From Herbiconiux ginsengi (lineage in GTDB: Bacteria > Actinomycetota > Actinomycetes > Actinomycetales > Microbacteriaceae), in assembly GCF_900107435.1 (NCBI RefSeq), contig NZ_FNPZ01000002.1:62001-126000 (forward strand): DNA of 64,000 nucleotides, in the 5' to 3' direction. A program made the position numbers and the translations under genes. Shown piece by piece: positions 276 through 11,071 of the stretch. A model generated the notes under the pieces. That model did no database searches and was not told the origin of the DNA. It saw only the letters and a program-made list of their open reading frames with translations. Positions within the stretch are counted from its first letter, which is position 1. Each line of letters begins with the position of its first letter.

Positions 276-2450
276 CTAGAGCAGGCCGAGTTCGCGGGCG
301 CGGAGGATGGCGGCATCGCGGTCGGGGGCGTCGAGTTTGCGGTAGATGTGGGCCATGTGCGTCTTGATGGTGTTCACCGACACGAACAGCCGCGCCGCCA
401 GTTCGGCGTTGGAGTAGCGGCTGGGAAAGTAGGCGAGCAGCTCGCGTTCGCGATCGGTGAGCGGCACGGGCAGCGGCGAGATCGTGGCCGCGAGCGGCAC
501 CGCCTCGCGCGCGCGGGCGAGCTCGGCGGCCACCACCGGGGGCGGGGGCCCGATCGCCTCGTCGTCGACGAAGAGGTGACCCAGGATGAGGGTCTTCGCC
601 AGCCGCACCAGCCAGAGCAGCTGCGTGCGGTTGTCGAGGGCGGAGAGCGCCTCGGCGTCGCGCAGCGCCGCGATCGCCGCCTCGGTGCGGCCGAGCCCGA
701 TGGCCGCGAAACATCGAGCGAGGTGGGCGTCGGCGGGAGCCGGATGGCCGAGCAGCCCGACCTCGCGAGCGAGCGCGATCGCCTCGTCGGCGGTCTCGAG
801 ACCCCGGTCGAGGTCGCCTTCCCAGACATCCACGAGCGCGAGACTCCCGAGCAGATGGATGCGGTGGGCCGAGTACCGGCCGCCCGGCGTGTCCAGCCCC
901 CGCTGCAGCCACGACCGGGCCTCGGCCAGCCGGCCGAGGAGGAAGAGTGATCGCCCACCCGCCGCGAGCACGAACGGCCACAGCAGTTCGACGTTGGTGA
1001 GCCGGAGCAGATCGGGCACCGGAGAACCGTCGTGGTCGGTGAGCCGACGGAGGGCCTCTTCGGCGTCGGTCAACGAGAGCGCCGGGTTCGGCCGGAGCTG
1101 CACTCGCCCGGTGAGGTAGCACTGCGCCACGAGCTGCTGACCGGCGGTGAGGCCCGGATCGGCGCAGAGCTCCCGCAGGATGTCTTCGGCCTGCGCACCG
1201 TGGCCGCTCAGTCCGAGCAGGATTCCCCGCAGCAGCTGCGCATCCGGATTGCGGCGCAGCACGCGCTCCGGAACGGCATCGAGCCAGCGGAGCATGGTGG
1301 CCGTCTCGCCGCGTTCGAAGACGTCCGATCCGCGCGCCAGCAGCACGTCGAGCACCGAATCCCAGCGCTCCGCCTCGAGGAAGTACCCGATGGCCTTCTC
1401 GAAGGAGTCGTGCTCGAGCGACCATTCCGCGGCATGCACGAGCATCGCGGCCTCTTCGGCGGGGTCGTTCACGTGCAGCCGGTAGCGCAACAGCTCGCGG
1501 AAGAGGTGGTGGAAACGGTACCAGCCCGGCCTGCCGGCGACGGGCAGAACGAACATCGACTGCTCCTGCAGCGACTCGAGCAGCCCGGCCGCACGCGCCT
1601 CGCCGGTGCAGGCGGCCACCAGGTCGGCATTCATCTCCGTGAGGGCGGAGAGCCGCAGCAACATCTCGCGGCGGCCCTGCGGTTGCGCGAGCAGCACCTC
1701 CTCACCGAGGTAGTCGGCGATCAGTCGATCGCTGCCGACGAGCAGCGAGACGAAGGCCTCGGGGTCGCCGGTGTCGCGCAGGGTCAACGCCGCCAACTGC
1801 ACCCCGGCTGCCCAGCCCTCGGTGCGTTCGACCAGCACCGACACGGCTTCGGGGCTCAAGGCGCGGCCGCTGATGCGCGCGACCGCCTCCGCGGCATCCG
1901 CGTCGCCGAAGGCCAAGTGCGACTGCCGCAGCTCGAGGAGGTTGTAGCGCAGGCGCAACGGAGCCCACCCGAGCCGGAAGTCGCGCCGCGACGAGAGCAC
2001 CAGGTGCACCTGCTCGGGCAGGGTGTCGACGAGGGCCCAGAGATCGGCGAGCACCTTCTCGTTGGCCAGCAGGTGCAGGTCGTCGAGCACGATCTCGCAC
2101 TCGGGGAGGGGGCGCATCCGCTCGCTCAACGCATCGACGAACGGGCGGCCCAGCCCGCCGTCGGCTGCGACCACCTTCGCGACGAGGTCCTCGATGCCGG
2201 GGGAGAGCGAGTTGAGCGCGGAGGTGAGGCGGCGCGCGAAGTGCGCGGCATCCACGTCGTCGGGGCCGACGTCGATCCAGACGAAGGCTAGGTCGTCGTG
2301 GCCGGCGGCCCATTGACTGATCAGCACGGACTTGCCGGCGCCCGCCGGCGCCACGATCAACGTGGCCGGGCCGGTTCGGCCCTCGTCGAGCAGAAGGCGC
2401 AGGCTCGGTCGATCGACCGCGTGATGCGGAGGAACATGCCGCTGTGTCAT
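276..2450 (-). CDS. MalT-type LuxR-family ATP-dependent transcriptional regulator
   Basis: A 724-residue one-component regulator. An N-terminal P-loop APAGAGKS (about 34-41) and a Walker B segment IVLDDLHLL (about 120) form a STAND-type ATPase; a long helical, TPR-like middle follows; the C-terminus (about 655-720) is a LuxR helix-turn-helix with LTDRERELLAYF and SVNTIKTHMAHIYRKL. Family knowledge: such proteins activate transcription after binding an inducer and ATP. The start at 2450 is chosen because AGAGG lies a few bases upstream and the P-loop then sits near the N-terminus as in MalT; earlier in-frame ATGs give an unlikely extension. The inducer is unknown. Targets may be the genes carrying the shared dyad element upstream (2500-2522 and relatives). 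Confidence 0.9.
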   Translation of the reverse strand: MTQRHVPPHHAVDRPSLRLLLDEGRTGPATLIVAPAGAGKSVLISQWAAGHDDLAFVWIDVGPDDVDAAHFARRLTSALNSLSPGIEDLVAKVVAADGGLGRPFVDALSERMRPLPECEIVLDDLHLLANEKVLADLWALVDTLPEQVHLVLSSRRDFRLGWAPLRLRYNLLELRQSHLAFGDADAAEAVARISGRALSPEAVSVLVERTEGWAAGVQLAALTLRDTGDPEAFVSLLVGSDRLIADYLGEEVLLAQPQGRREMLLRLSALTEMNADLVAACTGEARAAGLLESLQEQSMFVLPVAGRPGWYRFHHLFRELLRYRLHVNDPAEEAAMLVHAAEWSLEHDSFEKAIGYFLEAERWDSVLDVLLARGSDVFERGETATMLRWLDAVPERVLRRNPDAQLLRGILLGLSGHGAQAEDILRELCADPGLTAGQQLVAQCYLTGRVQLRPNPALSLTDAEEALRRLTDHDGSPVPDLLRLTNVELLWPFVLAAGGRSLFLLGRLAEARSWLQRGLDTPGGRYSAHRIHLLGSLALVDVWEGDLDRGLETADEAIALAREVGLLGHPAPADAHLARCFAAIGLGRTEAAIAALRDAEALSALDNRTQLLWLVRLAKTLILGHLFVDDEAIGPPPPVVAAELARAREAVPLAATISPLPVPLTDRERELLAYFPSRYSNAELAARLFVSVNTIKTHMAHIYRKLDAPDRDAAILRARELGLL

Positions 2451-2499: not shown

Positions 2500-2522
2500 T
2501 CATCCATGGCGGATGACGTCTG
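2500..2522 (+). promoter_or_regulatory. Dyad element, copy 1 (upstream of small protein gene)
   Basis: TCATCC-N5-GGATGA followed by CGTCTG. It aligns without gaps to the elements at 3974-3998 (minus) and 6187-6211 (plus), sharing TCA-Y-CC and GGATGACG. It ends 45 bases before the GTG at 2568 and lies 49 bases upstream of the divergent LuxR start. Inference: operator or activator site. Confidence 0.55.
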
Positions 2523-2567
2523 GAATCGGCGTCCGGCGCACACTCGATGAGGAGGGAGGGCCCCTCC

Positions 2568-2801
2568 GTGGACGCACGGGAGGCACGGGTGCACGAGCAG
2601 ACCTTCGAGATCGTGGTGCGTGGCCGGTTGAGCCCCGAGCTCGCGGCGACGTTGACCGGCTACGACGTGTTCGTCGACGACGACTCGTTCACCCACGTCA
2701 CCGGACTCGTGATCGATCAGGCCGCCTTGCACGGACTGATCTCGATGTTCGGATCGCTGAACATCGACCTCGTGTCGGTCAACCCCGCGCCGGCCGGTTA
2801 G
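2568..2801 (+). CDS. Small conserved actinobacterial protein of unknown function
   Basis: A 77-residue acidic protein without membrane segments, divergent from the LuxR regulator. The pattern FEIVVRGRLSPELA, then TGYDVFVDDDS, then LVIDQAALHGLISMFGSL resembles a family of 70-90 residue actinobacterial proteins of the type 'DQAALHGLL...LGLDL', often beside transporters or regulators; no function is known to me. GTG at 2568 is preferred because GGAGGGAGGG lies just upstream; GTG at 2589 and ATG at 2547 are alternatives. Its 3' end overlaps the convergent AI-2E gene by 23 bases. Confidence 0.7.
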   Translation: MDAREARVHEQTFEIVVRGRLSPELAATLTGYDVFVDDDSFTHVTGLVIDQAALHGLISMFGSLNIDLVSVNPAPAG

Positions 2802-3921
2802 CCGCCTTCTGTGCCTTGGCCGACTTGCGGGCGGTCTTCTCGTCTACGTAGTCGGATTTCAGGATGCCGCGGGTCTCGGCCGTGGGCCCGAGCACCGGCC
2901 GCCACCACTGCGCATCCGGATTCGCGTCGATCAGGATCATCTTGCCGAGCAACGTCAACGGCACTGCGAGGATCGCCCCGATCGGCCCGATCACCACCGC
3001 CCAGAACAGCACCGAGAAGAAGGTGACGGTCTGGCTGAGCGAGACCGCCTGCCCCACCACCCGCGGCTGGATGATCGACTGCACCACCGCGTTGATCACG
3101 CCGTAGACGATCACGATGGCGATGACCGTCGGCCAGCCGCCCACCAGGAAGCCGAAGATGATCGGCGGGATGATGGCGAAGAAGTAGCCGATGTTCGGGA
3201 TGAAGCTCATCAAGAACGCGAGCAGCCCCCAGAGCAGCGCCGCGGGCACGTGCAGGATCGCGAGAGCGAGCGTGTTCAGCGCGCCCTGCACGATGCCGAG
3301 CACGGTGGTGACCACCATGTAGCGCCGCACGTTCGAGGTGTAGGAGGTGATCGCGGTGACGAGGTCGGGCTTGCGGGTCTTCAGTTGCCCGAGGATCGTC
3401 TTGGCGTAGACCGCGTCGGCGGCCATCAGGATCATCATGGTGAGCACGATCACGAGTGCCGCGGTGATGCCCGCGACGCTGCCGATCGCGCTGGTCACGG
3501 CGGCGATCACGTTGCCCGGATCGATCCCCTGCACCACGGCCTGGATCTGTTGCTGGTCGATGCCGAGCGTGGTCAGCCAGCCGGCGACGGTCTCGCCGAT
3601 CTGCTGGAACTGCGCGGCGTAGCCGGGCAGCATCGCCACGAACTGCGAGAAGGCGATCAGGATCGTGTAGGTGAATCCGGCCAGCAACCCGAAGACCACC
3701 AGGATGACCGCTCCCGTGGCCAGGCCTCGCGGCACGCCCCGCTTCTCCAGGCCCGTGCGCACCGGACTCGCGCAGATCGTGAGGATGAGGGTGAGCAGAA
3801 CCGGGGCCAGGATGCCGCGCAGCGAGCTGATGCCGATCGACACCACCACGGCCGAGGCCAGCCCCACCAGGATGATCGCCCCGCGCGGATAGGGCGATCG
3901 TGACTCGGTGCTGTCGGTCAT
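2779..3921 (-). CDS. AI-2E family (TqsA/PerM-like) membrane transporter
   Basis: A 380-residue polytopic membrane protein. Hydrophobic segments near the N-terminus (after SPYPRGAIILVG) and in the second half, the long soluble stretch between helices, and the conserved region around FLMSFIPNIGYFFAIIPP mark the AI-2E exporter/PerM family. Proposed roles in the family are autoinducer export or ion/proton coupling; the substrate here is unknown. ATG at 3921 has GGGAG upstream; an ATG at 3984 has no ribosome site and would overlap the shared dyad element. The gene is divergent from cardiolipin synthase, separated by 111 bases that carry dyad copy 2. Confidence 0.85.
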   Translation of the reverse strand: MTDSTESRSPYPRGAIILVGLASAVVVSIGISSLRGILAPVLLTLILTICASPVRTGLEKRGVPRGLATGAVILVVFGLLAGFTYTILIAFSQFVAMLPGYAAQFQQIGETVAGWLTTLGIDQQQIQAVVQGIDPGNVIAAVTSAIGSVAGITAALVIVLTMMILMAADAVYAKTILGQLKTRKPDLVTAITSYTSNVRRYMVVTTVLGIVQGALNTLALAILHVPAALLWGLLAFLMSFIPNIGYFFAIIPPIIFGFLVGGWPTVIAIVIVYGVINAVVQSIIQPRVVGQAVSLSQTVTFFSVLFWAVVIGPIGAILAVPLTLLGKMILIDANPDAQWWRPVLGPTAETRGILKSDYVDEKTARKSAKAQKAANRPARG

Positions 3922-3973
3922 CGGCGTGCTCCCGCTCGTTGAGATGCCCTCACGGTAGGCGGGCGGCGTCGGG

Positions 3974-3998
3974 ACTGTCGTCATCCCGTCAGGGTGAT
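3974..3998 (-). promoter_or_regulatory. Dyad element, copy 2 (between AI-2E gene and cls)
   Basis: On the minus strand this 25-base stretch is identical to the copy at 6187-6211 at all but one position. It ends 52 bases before the AI-2E start codon and lies 34 bases upstream of cls, so it could serve both divergent genes. Confidence 0.65.
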
Positions 3999-4020
3999 GC
4001 AGGCCGCACGCGCGATTGGC

Positions 4021-4032
4021 TAGGTTCCCCTC
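4021..4032 (+). promoter_or_regulatory. -10 hexamer for leaderless cls transcript
   Basis: TAGGTT is followed by exactly six bases and the ATG of cls. There is no Shine-Dalgarno sequence. This spacing places the transcription start at or next to the start codon. Confidence 0.45.
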
Positions 4033-5505
4033 ATGAGCGACGTGCTGTTCACCAATCTCGTCTGGATCGTGGTCGTCGCGGCCGATCTGGCCATCCGGAT
4101 CGCAGCACTCATCATCGTCCCCCGTGACCGCAAGCCCACCGCGGCCATGGCGTGGCTGCTCGCGATCTTCCTCATCCCGTTCGTGGGCATCCTGCTCTTC
4201 CTCGTGATCGGCCGCACGAAGCTGCCGAAGAAGCGACTCGCGCTGCAGAGCACGGTCGACGGGATGATCGCCGAGAGGGCCCGTGCGCTCGACCTCACAC
4301 CGCGGCGTGCCTCCTGGCCGGTGTGGTTCGAGAACCTGGTGATCCAGAACGAGCGGCTCACGCGCATCCCGCCGAGCGACGGCAACACGGCGGAGCTCTT
4401 CGCCGACTACGAGGGTTCGATCGCCGCGATGACGGCCGAGATCGAACGGGCGACCACCTTCGTGCACGTCGAGTACTTCATCGTCTCCTTCGACGCCACC
4501 ACGGCGCACTTCTTCGGCGCGATGGAGCGCGCCGTGCAGCGGGGCGTCACCGTGCGCCTGCTCGCCGACCACCTCTCCTCGACGCGCGCGGTGCACAGCA
4601 AGGAGACCTTCGCCGAACTCGACCGGATCGGCGTGGTCTGGTCGTACATGCTCCCGGTGCGGCCGTTCAAGGGCGAGATCCAGCGGCCCGACCTGCGCAA
4701 CCACCGCAAGCTCGTCGTGGTCGATGGCCGGGTCGCGTTCATGGGGTCGCAGAACCTCATCGACCGCACCTACAACACGGCCAAGAATCTCAAGCGGGGC
4801 CTCAAATGGCAGGAGCTGGTGACGCGGCTCACCGGCCCGGTCGTCGCGAGCGTGAACGCGATCTTCCTCGGCGACTGGTTCACCGAGACCGGTGAACTCA
4901 TCACCGAGGAGAACGTGCCCGCGATCGACCAGCCCCGCGCATCCGGCGACGACGCCCTGGAATGCCAGCTCGTGCCGAGCGGGCCGGGCTACACCTTCGA
5001 GAACAACCTGCGGATGTTCCTCGGCCTGATCTACGGTGCCGAGCGGAAGGTCATCATCACGAGTCCCTACTTCGTGCCCGACGAGGCGATGATGTACGCC
5101 ATCACGGCGGCGTGCCAGCGCGGACTCGACGTGCAGCTGTTCGTCTCCGAGATCGGCGACCAGGGTCCGGTGTTCCACGCACAACGCTCCTACTACGGTG
5201 CGCTGCTCGAGGTGGGGGTGCGGATCTTCCAATACCCGGCTCCGTTCATCCTGCACGCGAAGCACCTGTCGATCGACGACGACCTCGGGGTGATCGGATC
5301 GAGCAACATGGACATCCGGTCGTTCAACCTCGACCTGGAGATCTCGCTTCTCGTGCGCGGCCGCTCCTTCGTCGACGGGATGCGGGCGGTCGAGCAGCAC
5401 TACCGGGACATCGGGCGCGAGCTCACCCGGGAGGAATGGGAGCGGGAGCCGCTCAGCCGCACCGTGTTCGACGGGGTCGCCCGACTCACCTCCGCCCTGG
5501 AGTGA
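4033..5505 (+). CDS. cls: Cardiolipin synthase (phospholipase D family)
   Basis: A 490-residue membrane enzyme that joins two phosphatidyl groups to form cardiolipin and glycerol. Two N-terminal transmembrane helices (about 5-25 and 38-58) precede two PLD domains, each with an HxKxxxxD motif: HRKLVVVDG (about residue 224) and HAKHLSIDD (about 407), both followed by GS-N. Length and layout match bacterial ClsA-type enzymes. The GAP-family gene starts two bases after the stop, so the two are probably co-transcribed. The divergent neighbour is the AI-2E transporter. Confidence 0.93.
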   Translation: MSDVLFTNLVWIVVVAADLAIRIAALIIVPRDRKPTAAMAWLLAIFLIPFVGILLFLVIGRTKLPKKRLALQSTVDGMIAERARALDLTPRRASWPVWFENLVIQNERLTRIPPSDGNTAELFADYEGSIAAMTAEIERATTFVHVEYFIVSFDATTAHFFGAMERAVQRGVTVRLLADHLSSTRAVHSKETFAELDRIGVVWSYMLPVRPFKGEIQRPDLRNHRKLVVVDGRVAFMGSQNLIDRTYNTAKNLKRGLKWQELVTRLTGPVVASVNAIFLGDWFTETGELITEENVPAIDQPRASGDDALECQLVPSGPGYTFENNLRMFLGLIYGAERKVIITSPYFVPDEAMMYAITAACQRGLDVQLFVSEIGDQGPVFHAQRSYYGALLEVGVRIFQYPAPFILHAKHLSIDDDLGVIGSSNMDIRSFNLDLEISLLVRGRSFVDGMRAVEQHYRDIGRELTREEWEREPLSRTVFDGVARLTSALE

Positions 5506-5507
5506 CG

Positions 5508-6173
5508 ATGGCCGACGCGATCGGACGACTGTTGCCGCTCGCGGTGGCGTTGGCGATCAGTTCGGTGCCCATCCTCGTCACCGTGCTGATCCTGCTCTCA
5601 CCCAACGCGCGCCGCTCGGCGTTCCCCTTTCTGATCGGCTTCGTCGCGGGCGTCGCCGGTGTGTTCGCGGGATGCATCGCGCTCGCTCAGGTGATCCCGG
5701 TGCGGGTCGTGCGGCATCCTCAGGAGGCGCTCGGGATCGCGTTGATCGTGATCGGCGCCGCCCTGGTGGTGCTGGCGGTGGTCGGCGGGGTGCGGTCACT
5801 GCATGCCGAGGCCTCGGGCGTGCCGCGCTGGATGAGCCTGGTCTCGGGCTTCGGGCCGCTGCGGTCGGCGGGCCTCGGCGTGCTGCTCTGCTTCCGGCCG
5901 AAGTCGATCCTGCTCTGCGCGGCCGCCGGCCTCTCGGTGCGCGGCGAGCGACTCTCGCCGGGCGAGCTCGGCGTGCTGGTGACGGTGTTCACTCTTCTCG
6001 CCGCCTCGACCGTGATCGCCCCGATCGTCGTGGCCGCGGCTTCCCCCGAACACGCCCAGAACTGGCTGACGGCGATGCGGCACTGGATCGAGAAGAACAG
6101 TTCCACGGTTACCACCGTCATCCTGCTCATCATCGGCGTCGTCGTGGTCGGTGACGGGCTCACGCGGCTCTGA
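5508..6173 (+). CDS. GAP/Sap family membrane protein
   Basis: A 221-residue protein with about six transmembrane helices in two groups of three, beginning IGRLLPLAVALAISSVPILV. The pattern LSPNARRSAFPFLIGF, then a loop with SLVSGFGPLRSAGLG matches the GAP family, whose Mycobacterium members help move glycopeptidolipid or sulfolipid to the surface. A role in lipid or small-molecule export is therefore possible but unproven. It is the second gene of the cls operon (two-base gap). A paralogue lies at 41703-42377. Confidence 0.8.
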   Translation: MADAIGRLLPLAVALAISSVPILVTVLILLSPNARRSAFPFLIGFVAGVAGVFAGCIALAQVIPVRVVRHPQEALGIALIVIGAALVVLAVVGGVRSLHAEASGVPRWMSLVSGFGPLRSAGLGVLLCFRPKSILLCAAAGLSVRGERLSPGELGVLVTVFTLLAASTVIAPIVVAAASPEHAQNWLTAMRHWIEKNSSTVTTVILLIIGVVVVGDGLTRL

Positions 6174-6186
6174 CGCCGTGCAGCGG

Positions 6187-6211
6187 ATCACCCCGACGGG
6201 ATGACGACAGT
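6187..6211 (+). promoter_or_regulatory. Dyad element, copy 3 (upstream of DUF1254 gene)
   Basis: TCACCC-N5-GGATGACG followed by ACAGT. It differs at one base in 25 from copy 2 and ends 49 bases before the DUF1254 ATG, nearly the same spacing as in the other copies. Confidence 0.65.
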
Positions 6212-6260
6212 GCATCCGCCCTCCGATTGACTCGCTGCATCGACCCTGGAGGAACGACGA

Positions 6261-7595
6261 ATGACAGCGACAGATCCCGTCGAGATCCGAGAACGGGCGG
6301 CTGAGGCCTTCACCTACCTGTACCCGCTTGTCACGATGGACGTCACGCGGATGCAGCTCACCGACACCCGCGACCCCGCCGCCATCGGGCGCAGCGCTCC
6401 CAACACCTTCTCCCATGTGCAGCAGTTTCCGCCGGCCGATTTCCGGAGCGTCGTGGCGCCGAACTTCGACACGCTGTACAGCGTCGCCTGGCTCGATCTC
6501 GAGGAGAGCCCGATCGTGCTCGACGTCGCAGACTCCGGTGGCCGGTACTACCTGCTCCCGATGCTCGACATGTGGACCGACGTGTTCGCGGTTCCCGGTA
6601 AACGCACGACGGGCACCGGGGCCGGCTCCTTCGTGATCGCGGGACCCGATTGGAGCGGGAGCGTGCCGCCCGGGGCACAGCTCATCCGGGCCACCACCTC
6701 CACGGTGTGGCTGATCGGCCGCACCCAGACCGACGGTCCGGCCGACTACGACGCGGTGCACCGGTTCCAGCGTGGGCTGACGCTGCGCGCGCTCGACGGG
6801 GGCGAGCTCTCGCACGAGGTGCGGGCATCCGTCGCCCCGGAGAACCTCGACCTCACCGGCGACCCGCTGCACATCGTGAACGGACTCCCGGCGATCGACT
6901 ACTTCGGCTATGCGGCACGGCTCGTGCAGCTCTACCCGCCGCACGCCACCGACTTCTCGGTGCTCGCGCGGATCGCCCGCATCGGCTTCGTGCCGGGTGA
7001 CGACTTCGACGGCTCCGGATTCGACGCCGACGGTCTGGCCGCTCTCGAGGCTGGGAAGGCGGATGCGCTGGCTCACCAGCTCGCCGAGCTGCCCACGCTC
7101 GCCCGCGTGGCGAGCGGCTGGTCGATGAACACCGACACGATGGGCGTGTACGGCAACTTCTACACCAAGCGCGCCATCGTGGCGATGGTGGGTCTCGGAG
7201 CCAACCCGCCGGAGGACGCCGTGTACCCGATCGCGGTGGCCGATTCCGACGGCTCGCCGATCGTGGGTGAGAAGTCCTACGTGCAGCACTTCGAGAAGTC
7301 GGAGCTGCCCCCGGTCGGCGCCTTCTGGTCGGTCACCATGTACGACGCCGACAGCTTCCAGGTGGCGAACCCGCTGAACCGCTTCGCGCTCGGCGACCGC
7401 GATCCGCTGGTCTACGGCGCCGACGGCTCGCTCGACCTCTACTACGGTCCCACCGATCCCGGCGGCGACCGCACGGCCAACTGGCTGCCCGCACCGGCCG
7501 GGCCGCTGCGCATCATCATGCGGCTGTACGAGCCAGAAGCGGCGGTGCTCGACGGCGCCTGGAACCCGCCCGCGCTGAAAGCGGTGGCGCTCTGA
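6261..7595 (+). CDS. DUF1254/DUF1214 domain protein
   Basis: A 444-residue protein with no clear signal peptide. The N-terminal half carries DUF1254 features (YLYPLVTMDVTRMQLTD, PNFDTLYSVAWLDL, GRYYLLPMLDMWTDVFA); the C-terminal part has DUF1214 features (FWSVTMYDADSFQVANPLNR, LPAPAGPLRIIMRLYEPE). The family is widespread; some members are annotated as secreted or stress related, but the reaction is not known. GGAGGAACGACGA precedes the ATG. It leads an operon with the DUF2252 gene (13-base gap) and a small membrane protein, behind dyad copy 3. Confidence 0.9.
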   Translation: MTATDPVEIRERAAEAFTYLYPLVTMDVTRMQLTDTRDPAAIGRSAPNTFSHVQQFPPADFRSVVAPNFDTLYSVAWLDLEESPIVLDVADSGGRYYLLPMLDMWTDVFAVPGKRTTGTGAGSFVIAGPDWSGSVPPGAQLIRATTSTVWLIGRTQTDGPADYDAVHRFQRGLTLRALDGGELSHEVRASVAPENLDLTGDPLHIVNGLPAIDYFGYAARLVQLYPPHATDFSVLARIARIGFVPGDDFDGSGFDADGLAALEAGKADALAHQLAELPTLARVASGWSMNTDTMGVYGNFYTKRAIVAMVGLGANPPEDAVYPIAVADSDGSPIVGEKSYVQHFEKSELPPVGAFWSVTMYDADSFQVANPLNRFALGDRDPLVYGADGSLDLYYGPTDPGGDRTANWLPAPAGPLRIIMRLYEPEAAVLDGAWNPPALKAVAL

Positions 7596-7608: not shown

Positions 7609-9069
7609 ATGACCACGAACTCGCGCGTGACCATCGCTCCCGACAGCGGGGTTCCGCTCTGGCGCGGCAACGCCGAGCGCATCGATGCGGGGCGCTCCGC
7701 CCGGGCGCTGTCGCCGCGCCGGAGCCACGCGACGTGGCGCCCGGCCGACGACCGCACCGACGTCGTGACCACTCTCGAAGAGCAGGCCGAGTCGCGGGTG
7801 CGCTCGCTCATCCCGCTGCGCTATCAGCGGATGCTGAGTTCACCGTTCGCCTTCTACCGCGGTGGCGCCGCGATCATGGCGGGCGATCTCGCCGCCCTGC
7901 CCGACTCGGGCATCAGGACCCAGCTCTGCGGCGACGCGCACCTGGCGAACTTCGGACTGTTCAAGACCCCCGAACGTTCGCTGATCTTCGACCTCAACGA
8001 CTTCGACGAGACCGCGCGAGGCCCGTTCGAGTGGGACGTGAAGCGGCTCGCGGCGAGCTTCGAGATCGCGACCCGGCACCGTGGCTTCCGCGACGCCGAC
8101 CGGCGTGCCACCGTGCTCGCCGTGGGAGGCGCCTATCGCAGCGCGATCCGGCGCGCCGCGCGCGGACGCGTGCTCGACAGCTGGTACGAGCGGCTCGACG
8201 TCGGCGAGATGCGTGCGCTGCTGCGCGAAGCCGCGGCCAGTGGCGCCGCGAAGCGCACGCAGGTGCGCCGGACGGAGTCGACCATCGCCTCGGCCAACGA
8301 GCACGACAGCGCCCGGGCGTTCTCGAAACTGGTGCGCGAGGTCGACGGGCGCCTGCGGTTCGTCTCCACGCCTCCGCTCATCGTGCCGATCGAGGAGCTG
8401 CCGCCCGACGAAGGCGGATTCGGCGACGGCGACCTGATCGACGATCGCGCCGCCATCCCGGGCCTGCTGAGTGGCTACCAGTCCACGCTGCTCGACCGGC
8501 CGCATCCGCTGCGGGAGTTCAGCTACCACCATCTCGCGCGGAAGGTCGTGGGGGTCGGCAGTGTGGGCACGCGGGCCTGGGTCATCCTGTTGCAGGGAAC
8601 GGATGCCGGCGATCCTCTGCTGCTGCAGGCCAAGCAGGCCCAGCGGTCGGTGCTGGAACGGGGAACGGATGCGCCCGAGTACGACAACCACGGCGAGCGC
8701 GTCGTGCGCGGCCAGCGCTTGATGCAGGCCGCGAGCGACAGCTTCCTCGGCTGGCAGCGGGTGGACCGCACCGACGGCACCTCGCGGGACTATTATGTCC
8801 GGCAGCTCAGCGACGGCAAGGCCTCGTTCGACATGGAGCGGGCACAACCGGCCGGTGCCCTGATCTACGCGCGGCTCTGCGGGGAGACGCTCGCCCGGGC
8901 CCACGCCCGTGCCGGTGCGCGCCTCGAGATCAGTGCCTACCTGGGCGCGCGCGACGTGTTCGACCAGGCGGTGGCCGAGTTCGCCGAGCACTACGCTGAT
9001 CAGAACGACGCGGACTACGAGAGTGTGCGGGCGGCGGCCGCGTCGGGGCGGATCACAGTAGACGGATAG
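7609..9069 (+). CDS. DUF2252 family protein (kinase-like fold)
   Basis: A 486-residue cytoplasmic protein. Hallmarks are SSPFAFYRGGAAIMAGDLA, QLCGDAHLANFGLF (about 104-117) and FDLNDFDETARGPFEWDVKR (about 126-145), followed by a distal YYVRQLSDGKAS. The family is uncharacterised; its GDAHxxNFG and DFDE motifs recall the catalytic loop and metal-binding residues of aminoglycoside-phosphotransferase-like kinases, so phosphotransfer is a reasonable guess only. GGAGGAACGATC precedes the ATG. It is the second gene of the DUF1254 operon. Confidence 0.88.
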   Translation: MTTNSRVTIAPDSGVPLWRGNAERIDAGRSARALSPRRSHATWRPADDRTDVVTTLEEQAESRVRSLIPLRYQRMLSSPFAFYRGGAAIMAGDLAALPDSGIRTQLCGDAHLANFGLFKTPERSLIFDLNDFDETARGPFEWDVKRLAASFEIATRHRGFRDADRRATVLAVGGAYRSAIRRAARGRVLDSWYERLDVGEMRALLREAAASGAAKRTQVRRTESTIASANEHDSARAFSKLVREVDGRLRFVSTPPLIVPIEELPPDEGGFGDGDLIDDRAAIPGLLSGYQSTLLDRPHPLREFSYHHLARKVVGVGSVGTRAWVILLQGTDAGDPLLLQAKQAQRSVLERGTDAPEYDNHGERVVRGQRLMQAASDSFLGWQRVDRTDGTSRDYYVRQLSDGKASFDMERAQPAGALIYARLCGETLARAHARAGARLEISAYLGARDVFDQAVAEFAEHYADQNDADYESVRAAAASGRITVDG

Positions 9070-9086: not shown

Positions 9087-9581
9087 ATGGTGTCGGAACG
9101 AACCCTGCGTCAGACCCTCGTCACGCCCGAGCTGGTCTCGGGGATCGTTCTGGTCAGCGTCTTCGTGGCCGTCGCCGACCAGAACGACGGCGTGCTCGAC
9201 GTCTTCGCCATCACCGTCGTCAGCGTGCTCGTGTTCTGGTTCACCGAGGTCTTCGCACACACCGTGGCGGAGCAGCGTCGACGGGCCGTCGACGACTCGG
9301 TCGACCTCGGCGCCTCGCTCCGGGTCGCCCTGGTGAAATCGCGCGGATTCCTGTTCGCGGCGATCCTGCCCACCGTCTTCCTCGTGATCGGACTGTTCGG
9401 CGTCAACGAGGGAGTCGTGGCCTACTGGGCGGCGCTCTGGGTGGGGGTGGCCTCGCTCGCCGTGATCGGCTGGATCGCGTTCAAGGGGCGCGGGGTGGGC
9501 TGGTACTGGCGGGTCGGTGGAGCGCTCGCCACCGCGTGCCTCGGGTTGATGGCGGTTCTGCTCAAGATCCTGGTGCACTGA
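9087..9581 (+). CDS. Small integral membrane protein, unknown function
   Basis: A 164-residue protein with about four to five hydrophobic helices (for example SGIVLVSVFVAVA, FAITVVSVLVFWF, FLFAAILPTVFLVIGLFG, VGVASLAVIGWIAF) and an amphipathic loop rich in charged residues after the second helix. It starts 17 bases after the DUF2252 gene and is likely the last gene of that operon. I do not recognise a family. The final codons and stop lie inside the first unit of an 18-bp tandem repeat. Confidence 0.7.
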   Translation: MVSERTLRQTLVTPELVSGIVLVSVFVAVADQNDGVLDVFAITVVSVLVFWFTEVFAHTVAEQRRRAVDDSVDLGASLRVALVKSRGFLFAAILPTVFLVIGLFGVNEGVVAYWAALWVGVASLAVIGWIAFKGRGVGWYWRVGGALATACLGLMAVLLKILVH

Positions 9582-9639
9582 GTAGTCCTGGTGCACTGAG
9601 TAGTCCTGGCGCACTGAGAAGTCCTGGTGCGCTGAGAAG
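9568..9639 (+). repeat. 18-bp tandem repeat, four units
   Basis: Four head-to-tail units begin at 9568, 9586, 9604 and 9622, each starting TCCTGG. Units 1 and 2 are identical; units 3 and 4 differ at two positions each. Each unit carries TGA in the frame of the upstream gene. A partial fifth unit begins at 9640. The array joins the end of a membrane protein gene to a broken acetyltransferase and looks like local slippage. Confidence 0.9.
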
Positions 9640-9660
9640 TCGTGGACGCCACCGAACGCC

Positions 9661-10093
9661 TCGCTCGCGATCGACGTTCCGCTGCCCGAGGGCGTGACGC
9701 TGCGCCGGGTGACCGGGGAGTCGGAGGTGTGCGCGATGAGCGCGATGCACGACGAGGTGTTCGGCGATCCGCCCTCCGACGAGATGTTCGGCGATCCGCC
9801 CTCCGACGAGATGGCGGACGCGCTGATCCGGCGGCTCGATTTCGGCGACGGGATGGAACTGTGGGTGGCGGAGGAGGAGGGGCGGATGGTCTCCGCGGGC
9901 CGGCCCGAACCGATGGCCGGGACGGCGTTCGCCGGCATCTGGGGCGGGGCGACGCGTGAGCAGTGGCGGGCCCGGGGTGCGAATCGCGCTCTGACGGCCG
10001 CCCGGGCCCGATCGGCTCGAGCGTTCGGGGCTCGTGAAGGTCTCGACCGCGACACCGTACCGCTGGCGGCGCACTGCGGGCGCCACGGTGTAA
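9661..10093 (+). pseudogene. GNAT acetyltransferase pseudogene
   Basis: The reading frame from about 9661 encodes IDVPLPEGVTLRRVTG, then MELWVAEEEGRMVSAGRPEP and TAFAGIWGGATREQWRARG, a typical GNAT fold with acetyl-CoA loop. After ALTAARARSA homology stops at about 10018 and resumes in another frame (10019-10093) as ERSGLVKVSTATPYRWRR, the expected C-terminus. About twenty residues that normally sit between (the second half of the acetyl-CoA site) are missing with a frame change. There is also a 27-bp duplication (9757-9810) giving FGDPPSDE twice. No convincing start codon exists; the upstream frame opens inside the tandem repeat. The enzyme should be inactive. Confidence 0.8.
9757..9810 (+). 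repeat. 27-bp tandem duplication inside GNAT pseudogene
   Basis: Two adjacent copies (9757-9783 and 9784-9810) differ only at the first base and each encode FGDPPSDE preceded by V or M. Normal GNAT relatives would have one copy. Confidence 0.85.
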
Positions 10094-10095
10094 GT

Positions 10096-10132
10096 GGATG
10101 CCCCGGGCGCCGGACCTGGGCCCGGGGCATCC
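10096..10132. terminator. GC-rich hairpin downstream of GNAT pseudogene
   Basis: GGATGCCCCGGGC (10096-10108) is a perfect 13-base complement of 10120-10132, with an 11-base loop, three bases after the old stop codon at 10091-10093. No T-run follows. It would stop transcription from the left, possibly both ways. Confidence 0.6.
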
Positions 10133-10315
10133 GGTCGGTGGCGGGTGGGACCAGCCGATGTCTGCTTGGCGCAATCCGGAGACCGCCTGAAACCCGGTGT
10201 TCCCGCTCTTACCTCACGGCAGACCGGAGGGCCGCGACAGGTGCATCCCGGCTCTCACGAACTCTGACCGCTCGGCCTCGCCATCCGTGACGGGTCGGCA
10301 TGGTGACGGATGTGT

Positions 10316-11071
10316 TCATTGGGTCTGATCGGTGGGACGGATGAGGATCTCGTTCACCGAGACATGCGCCGGTTGCGTGACGGCGTAGAGCACGGCGGCC
10401 GCGACGTCGTCGGGCCGGAGCGTGCGCATCCGGGTCGCCAACTGGGTGGCCATCGCGCGCGACGCCGGGTCGGAGATGTGGTCGGTGAGCTCGGTCGCGG
10501 TGAAGCCCGGTTCCACCACGACCACACGCACGCCGTGCGCCGTGACCTCCTGCCGGAGCGATTCGGAGAAGGCGTTCACGCCGAATTTCGTGGCCGCGTA
10601 GACGCCGCCACCCGCGTTCGCGACGCGACCGGAGGTGGAGGAGAGCTGCACGAGCGCGCCTTTGCTCTCGAGAAGGTGGGGGAGGGCGGCGTGAGTCATG
10701 TACATCGTGCCCAGCAGGTTGGTGCCCACCATCCGCTCCCACTCCGCCGTGTCGGCGCCGTCGATCAAGCCGGTCAGCATGAGGCCCGCGTTGTTCACGA
10801 GCACGTCGAGGCGTCCGAACCGCTCGATCGTCGCTGCCACTGCGGCCCGAACGGAGCTCTGGTCGGACACGTCGAGCCGGAGCGCCAGCATCTCGCCCGG
10901 TGCGCTCTGCGCCAGCACGTCGAGTCGGTCGACCCGTCGCGCCCCCACGGCGACCCGTGCGCCCGCCGCGGACAGCGCGAGCGCCACCGCCTCTCCGATC
11001 CCGGATGACGCGCCGGTGACGAGCGCGACCTTTCCGCTCATCGTCTGGTTGGTGTTCGACATGTCCGTCAC
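10316..11071 (-). CDS. SDR-family NAD(P)-dependent oxidoreductase
   Basis: A 251-residue classical short-chain dehydrogenase. It shows TGASSGIG (19-26) for NAD(P) binding, VLVNNAG (about 90-96), the catalytic YAATK (about 157-161) and a C-terminal half typical of YdfG-like enzymes acting on small hydroxy compounds. The GTG at 11071 has AAGGAG nine bases upstream. The gene is divergent from a TetR regulator across 112 bases that contain two matching operator-like palindromes, so the regulator probably controls it. The substrate is unknown. Confidence 0.9.
   Translation of the reverse strand: MTDMSNTNQTMSGKVALVTGASSGIGEAVALALSAAGARVAVGARRVDRLDVLAQSAPGEMLALRLDVSDQSSVRAAVAATIERFGRLDVLVNNAGLMLTGLIDGADTAEWERMVGTNLLGTMYMTHAALPHLLESKGALVQLSSTSGRVANAGGGVYAATKFGVNAFSESLRQEVTAHGVRVVVVEPGFTATELTDHISDPASRAMATQLATRMRTLRPDDVAAAVLYAVTQPAHVSVNEILIRPTDQTQ

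Follow-up and report, generated by a model that had tools for sequence, protein, structure and literature searches.

Inverted MalT-box dyads as predicted operators of a MalT-type LAL regulator and its small regulon in a Microbacteriaceae genome

Three copies of the palindrome TCAYCC-N5-GGRTGA in the 64,000 nt stretch of DNA analysed here (the window) are in our view operators of the adjacent MalT-type LAL regulator, activating promoters whose -10 boxes start 23-24 nt downstream; we give this reading a probability of roughly 0.85. The sites, the geometry of their -10 boxes and their co-occurrence with the regulator were all found by computation. What we infer is that the regulator binds there and that it activates and does not repress, as well as any signal. 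The regulator, presumably a dimer, would bind two inverted MalT-box half-sites (GGRTGA) with a 5 bp gap over the -35 position. When active it would set its HTH pair on these half-sites and recruit RNA polymerase over the -35 position, a step proposed because the Actinoplanes and the enteric MalT proteins are described in this way.

The operator as such is already described in the main text of a study of Actinoplanes (PMC7567727), and what is new is the content and the spread of the regulon. An observation from Actinoplanes and close relatives becomes a testable regulon in another family, and the poorly known families DUF1254/DUF1214, DUF2252, DUF7144, SfLAP and small SHOCT proteins would gain a common regulator and possibly a link to stress, as would DUF6325 via bare dyads.

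Predicted operators and flanking genes

The first-pass annotation had placed three copies of the dyad at 2500-2522 (+), 3974-3998 (-) and 6187-6211 (+), and a pattern search returned these same positions; reading the sequence also confirmed that 3974-3998 (-) and 6187-6211 (+) are identical at 24 of 25 bases. The palindrome itself occupies 2500-2516, 3981-3997 and 6188-6204. Operator 1 (2500-2516, no strand assigned) is an exact TCATCC-N5-GGATGA between the regulator gene and a small ORF. Operator 2 (3981-3997, no strand assigned) is bidirectional, and both it and operator 3 (6188-6204, plus strand, TCACCC-N5-GGATGA) have C for T in one half-site.

With up to two mismatches the dyad matched six times in the window, compared to a mean of 1.73 in 100 shuffles, one of which reached six. 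The matches at 2498 minus and 3981 plus are opposite-strand readings of these palindromes, and the one at 10992 is unrelated. Exact TCAYCC-N5-GGATGA was found at five places in the genome of 4,853,715 bases, namely the three window dyads, C3:410033 and C4:111731. Over the whole genome the bare dyad is enriched, yet not specific, with 42 strand-hits at up to one mismatch vs 12 for the reversed control. We also varied the gap at 22 distinct loci that surround the regulator's relatives (367,857 bases, all outside the window): a gap of 5 bp gave 27 sites matching at least 13 of 14 positions, the other gaps from 0 to 12 gave 0-4, and the reversed control gave none.

The regulator gene (276-2450, minus strand) encodes 724 aa with a P-loop NTPase domain and a C-terminal GerE HTH. 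On the other side of operator 1 lies the small conserved ORF of 70 aa (2589-2801, plus strand), with a homolog in 18 of the 22 loci around the regulator's relatives. GTG 2589 is a more likely start than 2568, as the N-termini of relatives, called in this analysis, align there. The gene of the AI-2E family transporter (2779-3921, minus strand; PF01594, 1.5e-46) lies before operator 2, and beyond this operator follow cls, encoding a cardiolipin-synthase-like PLD protein (4033-5505, plus strand; PLDc_2, 3.7e-34), and the gene of an SfLAP family membrane protein (5508-6173, plus strand; PF11139, 5.7e-34), which is probably in one operon with cls. Behind operator 3, domain profile searches identified a DUF1254/DUF1214 protein (6261-7595, plus strand) and a DUF2252 protein (7609-9069, plus strand). 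This operon probably ends with the gene of a small protein (9087-9581, plus strand), an ORF call with no Pfam match. At L031 and L158 a homolog of this protein is encoded close to a relative of the regulator.

Structure prediction for the 70 aa protein gave a beta-alpha-beta-beta-alpha-beta order with mean pLDDT 90.3, i.e. a predicted ferredoxin/ACT-like fold. A fold search in PDB returned nothing at E<=0.001, the best matches being ACT-type, HMA, acylphosphatase and PII-like ferredoxin folds, which suggests a fold class, not a function. That this protein might be a sensing partner is a guess. Further downstream we noted tandem arrays at 9568-9645 (18 bp x 4.3) and 9750-9813 (27 bp x 2.4). The latter falls within an ORF (9694-10290) that matches no Pfam family; its middle by eye resembles part of an acetyltransferase, and it is perhaps a decayed gene.

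Promoter sequences

To describe the promoters we used 67 site-gene pairs, for which the sole criterion was a dyad at a distance of 30-150 nt from a called gene start, and scored TANNNT at each offset from 1 to 49. The box began at offset 23 in 14 pairs and at offset 24 in 12 (26/67), and at the remaining offsets it was seen four times in total, once each at four offsets. The conserved feature is this promoter geometry, a -10 TANNNT starting 23-24 nt past the dyad, and not the distance to the start codon. Start-codon spacing, which the first-pass annotation had taken as conserved, was rejected, as it differs greatly between relatives, covering 32 to 145 nt in the 67 pairs, vs the fixed -10 offset. 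Its arithmetic for the three window sites (45, 52 and 49) is right, but the first distance becomes 66 if GTG 2589 replaces 2568. The offset agrees with the motif-to-TSS distance of 34.4 +/- 1.0 nt given in the main text for Actinoplanes (PMC7567727), and with a TSS predicted from the -10 box the dyads here would likewise overlap -35, some 34 nt ahead of the TSS.

It had been assumed that each dyad faces one start and that the middle site serves the AI-2E gene alone. Operator 2 instead points both ways, with a -10 box at the right distance on both sides: TACCGT (3952-3957, minus strand) lies 24 nt after it towards the AI-2E gene and TAGGTT (4021-4026, plus strand) at +24 towards cls, both exact TANNNT, so cls at 4033 is served too. 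The cls ATG follows TAGGTT by 6 nt, hence we predict the cls mRNA to be leaderless.

The other two operators have weak -10 boxes with one mismatch, CACACT (2539-2544, plus strand) on the small-ORF side of operator 1 and TTGACT (6227-6232, plus strand) behind operator 3, each at a distance of 23 nt. Operator 1 is also about 50 nt upstream of the regulator gene; on this side CATACT is found at +17 and no canonical -10 at offset 23-24. The weak boxes of operators 1 and 3 and the regulator's side of operator 1 count against our preferred reading. Regarding autoregulation, operator 1 is just a candidate site for the regulator gene, whose own promoter has no canonical -10.

The predicted regulon in the present genome

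The first-pass annotation had suggested a genome-wide motif search. For this we used a composite of dyad plus -10 with up to one mismatch, which gave ten hits in the 4.85 Mb genome and none for the reversed control; eight have a gap of 22 nt and two of 23 nt, with both controls at zero. Nine of the ten are located at two loci 340 kb apart, four in the window locus and five at C3:405852-410049. The tenth (C2:905650) is inside a called ORF. This operator-plus-promoter rule lists the targets in this genome with one doubtful hit in ten. As to the worry that the motif is spread at random through coding DNA, bare dyads do occur there, but composites rarely do (one of ten in this genome, and a hit in G141).

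At the second locus we found divergent promoters for SDR-MFS and an alpha/beta hydrolase, divergent promoters for a YrhK protein and a glutamate decarboxylase, and one more for a class-II glutamine amidotransferase. The decarboxylase scores 612 bits with TIGR01788 (cut-off 380). Its site has one half-site mismatch and TAGTGT at +23, and an in-frame-looking ATG follows 6 nt on, upstream of the called start. The locus includes a MarR protein and a helicase-like protein, and among 13 of its 14 called genes (all except a 78 aa ORF) none encodes a LuxR-type regulator. The regulon as predicted from these sites would comprise nine promoters at two loci, driving the small ORF, AI-2E, cls-SfLAP, DUF1254-DUF2252, alpha/beta hydrolase, SDR-MFS, YrhK, glutamate decarboxylase and class-II amidotransferase.

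Properties of the regulator

The C-terminal HTH matches PF00196 (GerE) at 1.1e-11 over residues 663-717. The N-terminal P-loop NTPase was detected by AAA_16 (1.3e-06) and AAA_22, at E<=5e-05 and with both below their Pfam gathering scores; G37, G39 and K40 are invariant in 22 of 22 rows of the regulator profile A1. No TPR family was found in the central region at E<=0.001. Similarity to the relatives ends near residue 650 and restarts in the HTH. Together with the length of 724 aa, shorter than the open frames of the relatives, this break makes it seem as if a piece between the sensor region and the HTH is missing. Among the 22 relatives the longest open frames measure 742 to 1115 aa, with 20 between 814 and 1000.

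Compared to E. coli MalT the protein is 31% identical in the NTPase part (412 aa) and 42% in the HTH (59 aa), and it scores 262 bits with the MalT model NF003420, below the curated cut-off of 537. None of the genes that were annotated at the sites is a maltose gene. Judged by sequence, the product is best described as a MalT-type LAL regulator with an operator of the Actinoplanes type, not as MalT sensu stricto.

Distribution in other genomes

The comparison of motif and LuxR gene in related genomes, proposed from the outset, was made in 199 genomes of the same family (Microbacteriaceae) using A1, a regulator profile of 22 rows, with four candidates scored per genome. In one member of the family, G102, the locus is identical in DNA to that of Leifsonia flava. 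A1 splits ten clear orthologs (at least 724 bits) from a second group (at most 454 bits). The composite is present in 22 of the 199 genomes: in all ten with the ortholog (42 hits) and in 12 of the 189 without it (15 hits; Fisher p=3e-11), with a single hit for the reversed control, in G155. The ten ortholog genomes belong to seven genera and are not ten independent events, and the -10 offset was partly learned from loci of genomes in the family test, so that this test is not independent, whereas the class test outside the family is. Both the ortholog and the composite are missing from three genomes of the same genus (G011, G093 and G155). The strict palindrome alone was tried as a regulon marker and is weaker, being present in 36 of 199 genomes, of which nine are among the ten ortholog genomes and 27 among the other 189.

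Around the regulator's relatives, the full core dyad was found in 20 of 22 loci. Together with the co-occurrence of the ortholog and the Actinoplanes operator this gives good support to the original proposal of one regulon with the MalT-type protein at 276-2450 as regulator. At the two exceptions, L155 and L162, a full core dyad is absent over 8 kb; L162 is from G191, whose protein belongs to the weaker second group (438 bits). One culturable carrier of a related regulator gene is Microbacterium rhizomatis JCM 30598 (L020).

In the class set of 296 genomes the composite occurs in 24 genomes (37 hits, with three control hits). Outside the family 16 of the 70 genomes that encode an A1-type LAL (E<=1e-60) have it, vs four of the 212 that do not (p=1e-7). 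One class-set genome of our own family (G342) has an ortholog at 891.6 bits and no composite. A dyad adjoining the LAL was also looked for and is mostly absent outside the family: the core dyad is present at four of 26 LAL loci there (1.5 kb flanks), and three of the seven class loci with a core dyad (7/30) are from the own family, which supplies four of the 30 loci. As the dyad is seldom beside the LAL outside the family, the class-wide association is one at genome level only, and any A1-type LAL there is just a candidate reader of the dyad. The association could partly reflect genomes rich in LALs.

Several sites outside the ortholog genomes are in coding DNA or by unrelated genes, as seen among 20 such loci, which were viewed with seven from LuxR-positive genomes. 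Conservation of the motif in genomes lacking the LuxR gene had been named as evidence against the regulon. This is partly the case, as at least five genomes without the ortholog (G060, G122, G063, G129 and G182) keep composites before the same gene families and count against exclusivity of the regulator: the composites precede a SHOCT gene in G060, decarboxylase, YrhK and ClC genes in G122, and the amidotransferase gene in G063, G129 and G182, the last three genomes carrying second-group LALs. Hence another MalT-like protein probably reads the composite there, and the link between operator and targets appears broader than this regulator clade.

Alternative explanations

These five genomes raise an unlikely explanation for the present genome as well, namely that the operators are real and belong to a single regulon, but that their main reader is a different MalT-like LAL encoded elsewhere in the genome, the neighbour being a target and not the activator. 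Three further MalT-like proteins are indeed encoded (C2:1387304, 1339766 and 984089; 90-103 bits). However, only the window protein matched A1 at E<=1e-40 in this genome, among the four of 72 first-look candidates that were scored, the paralog loci L191-L193 have no core dyad within flanks of about 1.5 kb, and the three same-genus genomes named above lack ortholog and composite together.

We find it rather improbable that the dyads are operators of a repressor covering the -35 position. A dyad in that place could block RNA polymerase, and a repressing LAL does exist in SCO6993, as described in PMC9628970, but in Actinoplanes the same dyad at the same distance activates, since deletion of the regulator lowers and overexpression raises the genes according to the main text of PMC7567727. 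Chance similarity, or a dispersed palindromic repeat with no regulatory role, would fit the bare GTCAYCC-N5-GGRTGAY present in 91 of 296 actinobacterial genomes, some copies being in coding DNA, but is hardly credible given the gap specificity, the zero or near-zero controls, the fixed -10 offset and the clustering at two loci.

Related regulators

Operators of the adjacent regulator, as we prefer to read the dyads, have partial parallels. With E. coli MalT the present system shares the LAL architecture, the half-site core GGA(T/G)GA, the similarity in the HTH and a box over -35. The E. coli MalT boxes are described as direct repeats, unlike the inverted repeat with a 5 bp gap found here, and the missing maltose genes and the score below the MalT model cut-off further separate the two. 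To our knowledge, operators with a clear consensus have been described for few LAL regulators.

For the MalT protein of Actinoplanes sp. SE50/110 (ACSP50_3915), TCATCC-N5-GGATGA is reported ahead of 17 start sites at a TSS distance of 34.4 +/- 1.0 nt; its deletion lowers 42 of 51 genes and its overexpression raises 39 of 51, maltose genes being unaffected (PMC7567727, main text). In the same text the authors link the palindrome to the MalT box GGGGA(T/G)GAGG, report the motif in four related species as well, list arginine deiminase genes for the maltose-regulated region and leave the maltose response unexplained. Going by that text, the likeness covers the operator sequence, its overlap with -35, a MalT-like LAL encoded amid the target genes, a regulon without maltose genes and a class II glutamine amidotransferase in both. 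The present case differs in belonging to another bacterial family, in having TCACCC/GGGTGA half-sites too and in comprising two small loci compared to a region of 51 genes. The terms DUF and cardiolipin are absent from the main text of PMC7567727, and AI-2E, cls, DUF1254, DUF2252 and glutamate decarboxylase were not met in that account.

SCO6993 of Streptomyces coelicolor is likewise a large LuxR regulator (LAL), and it binds palindromes, including one in its own promoter; unlike the regulator proposed here it represses, and its sites share no common consensus (PMC9628970). We found no report of this regulon in Microbacteriaceae in the open-access literature, where PMC7567727 was covered by its main text, and by title only that paper reports a TCATCC/GGATGA operator among the matches listed.

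Target genes and possible function

For an overview of targets we took 79 distinct composite sites, a subset of all hits, of which 61 have a called gene start 25-260 nt downstream. Assigned by best match to reference targets (a set drawn partly from the same loci, with 13 of 53 being self-matches), the families behind the 61 sites are 15 small SHOCT membrane proteins, 10 glutamate decarboxylases, eight DUF7144, five MFS, four class-II amidotransferases, three DUF1254-type, two AI-2E and two YrhK proteins, and one each of DUF1269, LuxR, alpha/beta hydrolase and sulfatase. Eight of the 61 have no reference match, three of these being a MIP channel, a ClC channel and a sulfite-dehydrogenase-like protein. 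The 10 decarboxylases are from 10 genomes, and six show 35-36 nt from dyad to start, i.e. a leaderless spacing. DUF6325 and SulP genes follow bare dyads.

The regulon probably activates membrane-related genes, and possibly acid-resistance genes. The recurrent glutamate decarboxylase hints at acid stress, and from this enzyme, the ClC channel (one relative), cardiolipin synthase, the small membrane proteins and the Actinoplanes arginine deiminase genes we infer acid or envelope stress, these enzymes serving acid resistance. Going further, we speculate, with considerable doubt, that one branch of MalT-like LALs might switch on a widespread actinobacterial acid-stress regulon via inverted MalT boxes, often with leaderless mRNAs, and that the Actinoplanes 'maltose-regulated region' might be a case of it, maltose acting through acidification and not as inducer. 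Its targets would then be the enzymes glutamate decarboxylase and cardiolipin synthase, channels of the ClC and aquaporin types, YrhK and small SHOCT membrane proteins. If this were true, an explanation could be offered for the unexplained maltose response.

Some single loci may be mentioned. In G028 (L229:8312-9160) a MIP aquaporin-type gene lies between the decarboxylase and YrhK genes, each with its own composite operator. In G122, where no ortholog was found, the ClC chloride channel and the sulfite-dehydrogenase-like protein are behind composites (L241 and L242). A perfect GTCACCC-N5-GGGTGAC is present in G168 (L187, 7163-7181) about 220 nt upstream of the called start of a distant LAL (about 30% identical), with a SulP-permease-like gene (by eye) nearby and no canonical -10. 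Finally, L024, on a contig labelled as an Acidimicrobiales MAG, encodes a regulator at 46% identity, as close as the Microbacteriaceae ones, along with two dyads, and is perhaps a mis-binned contig or a transfer.
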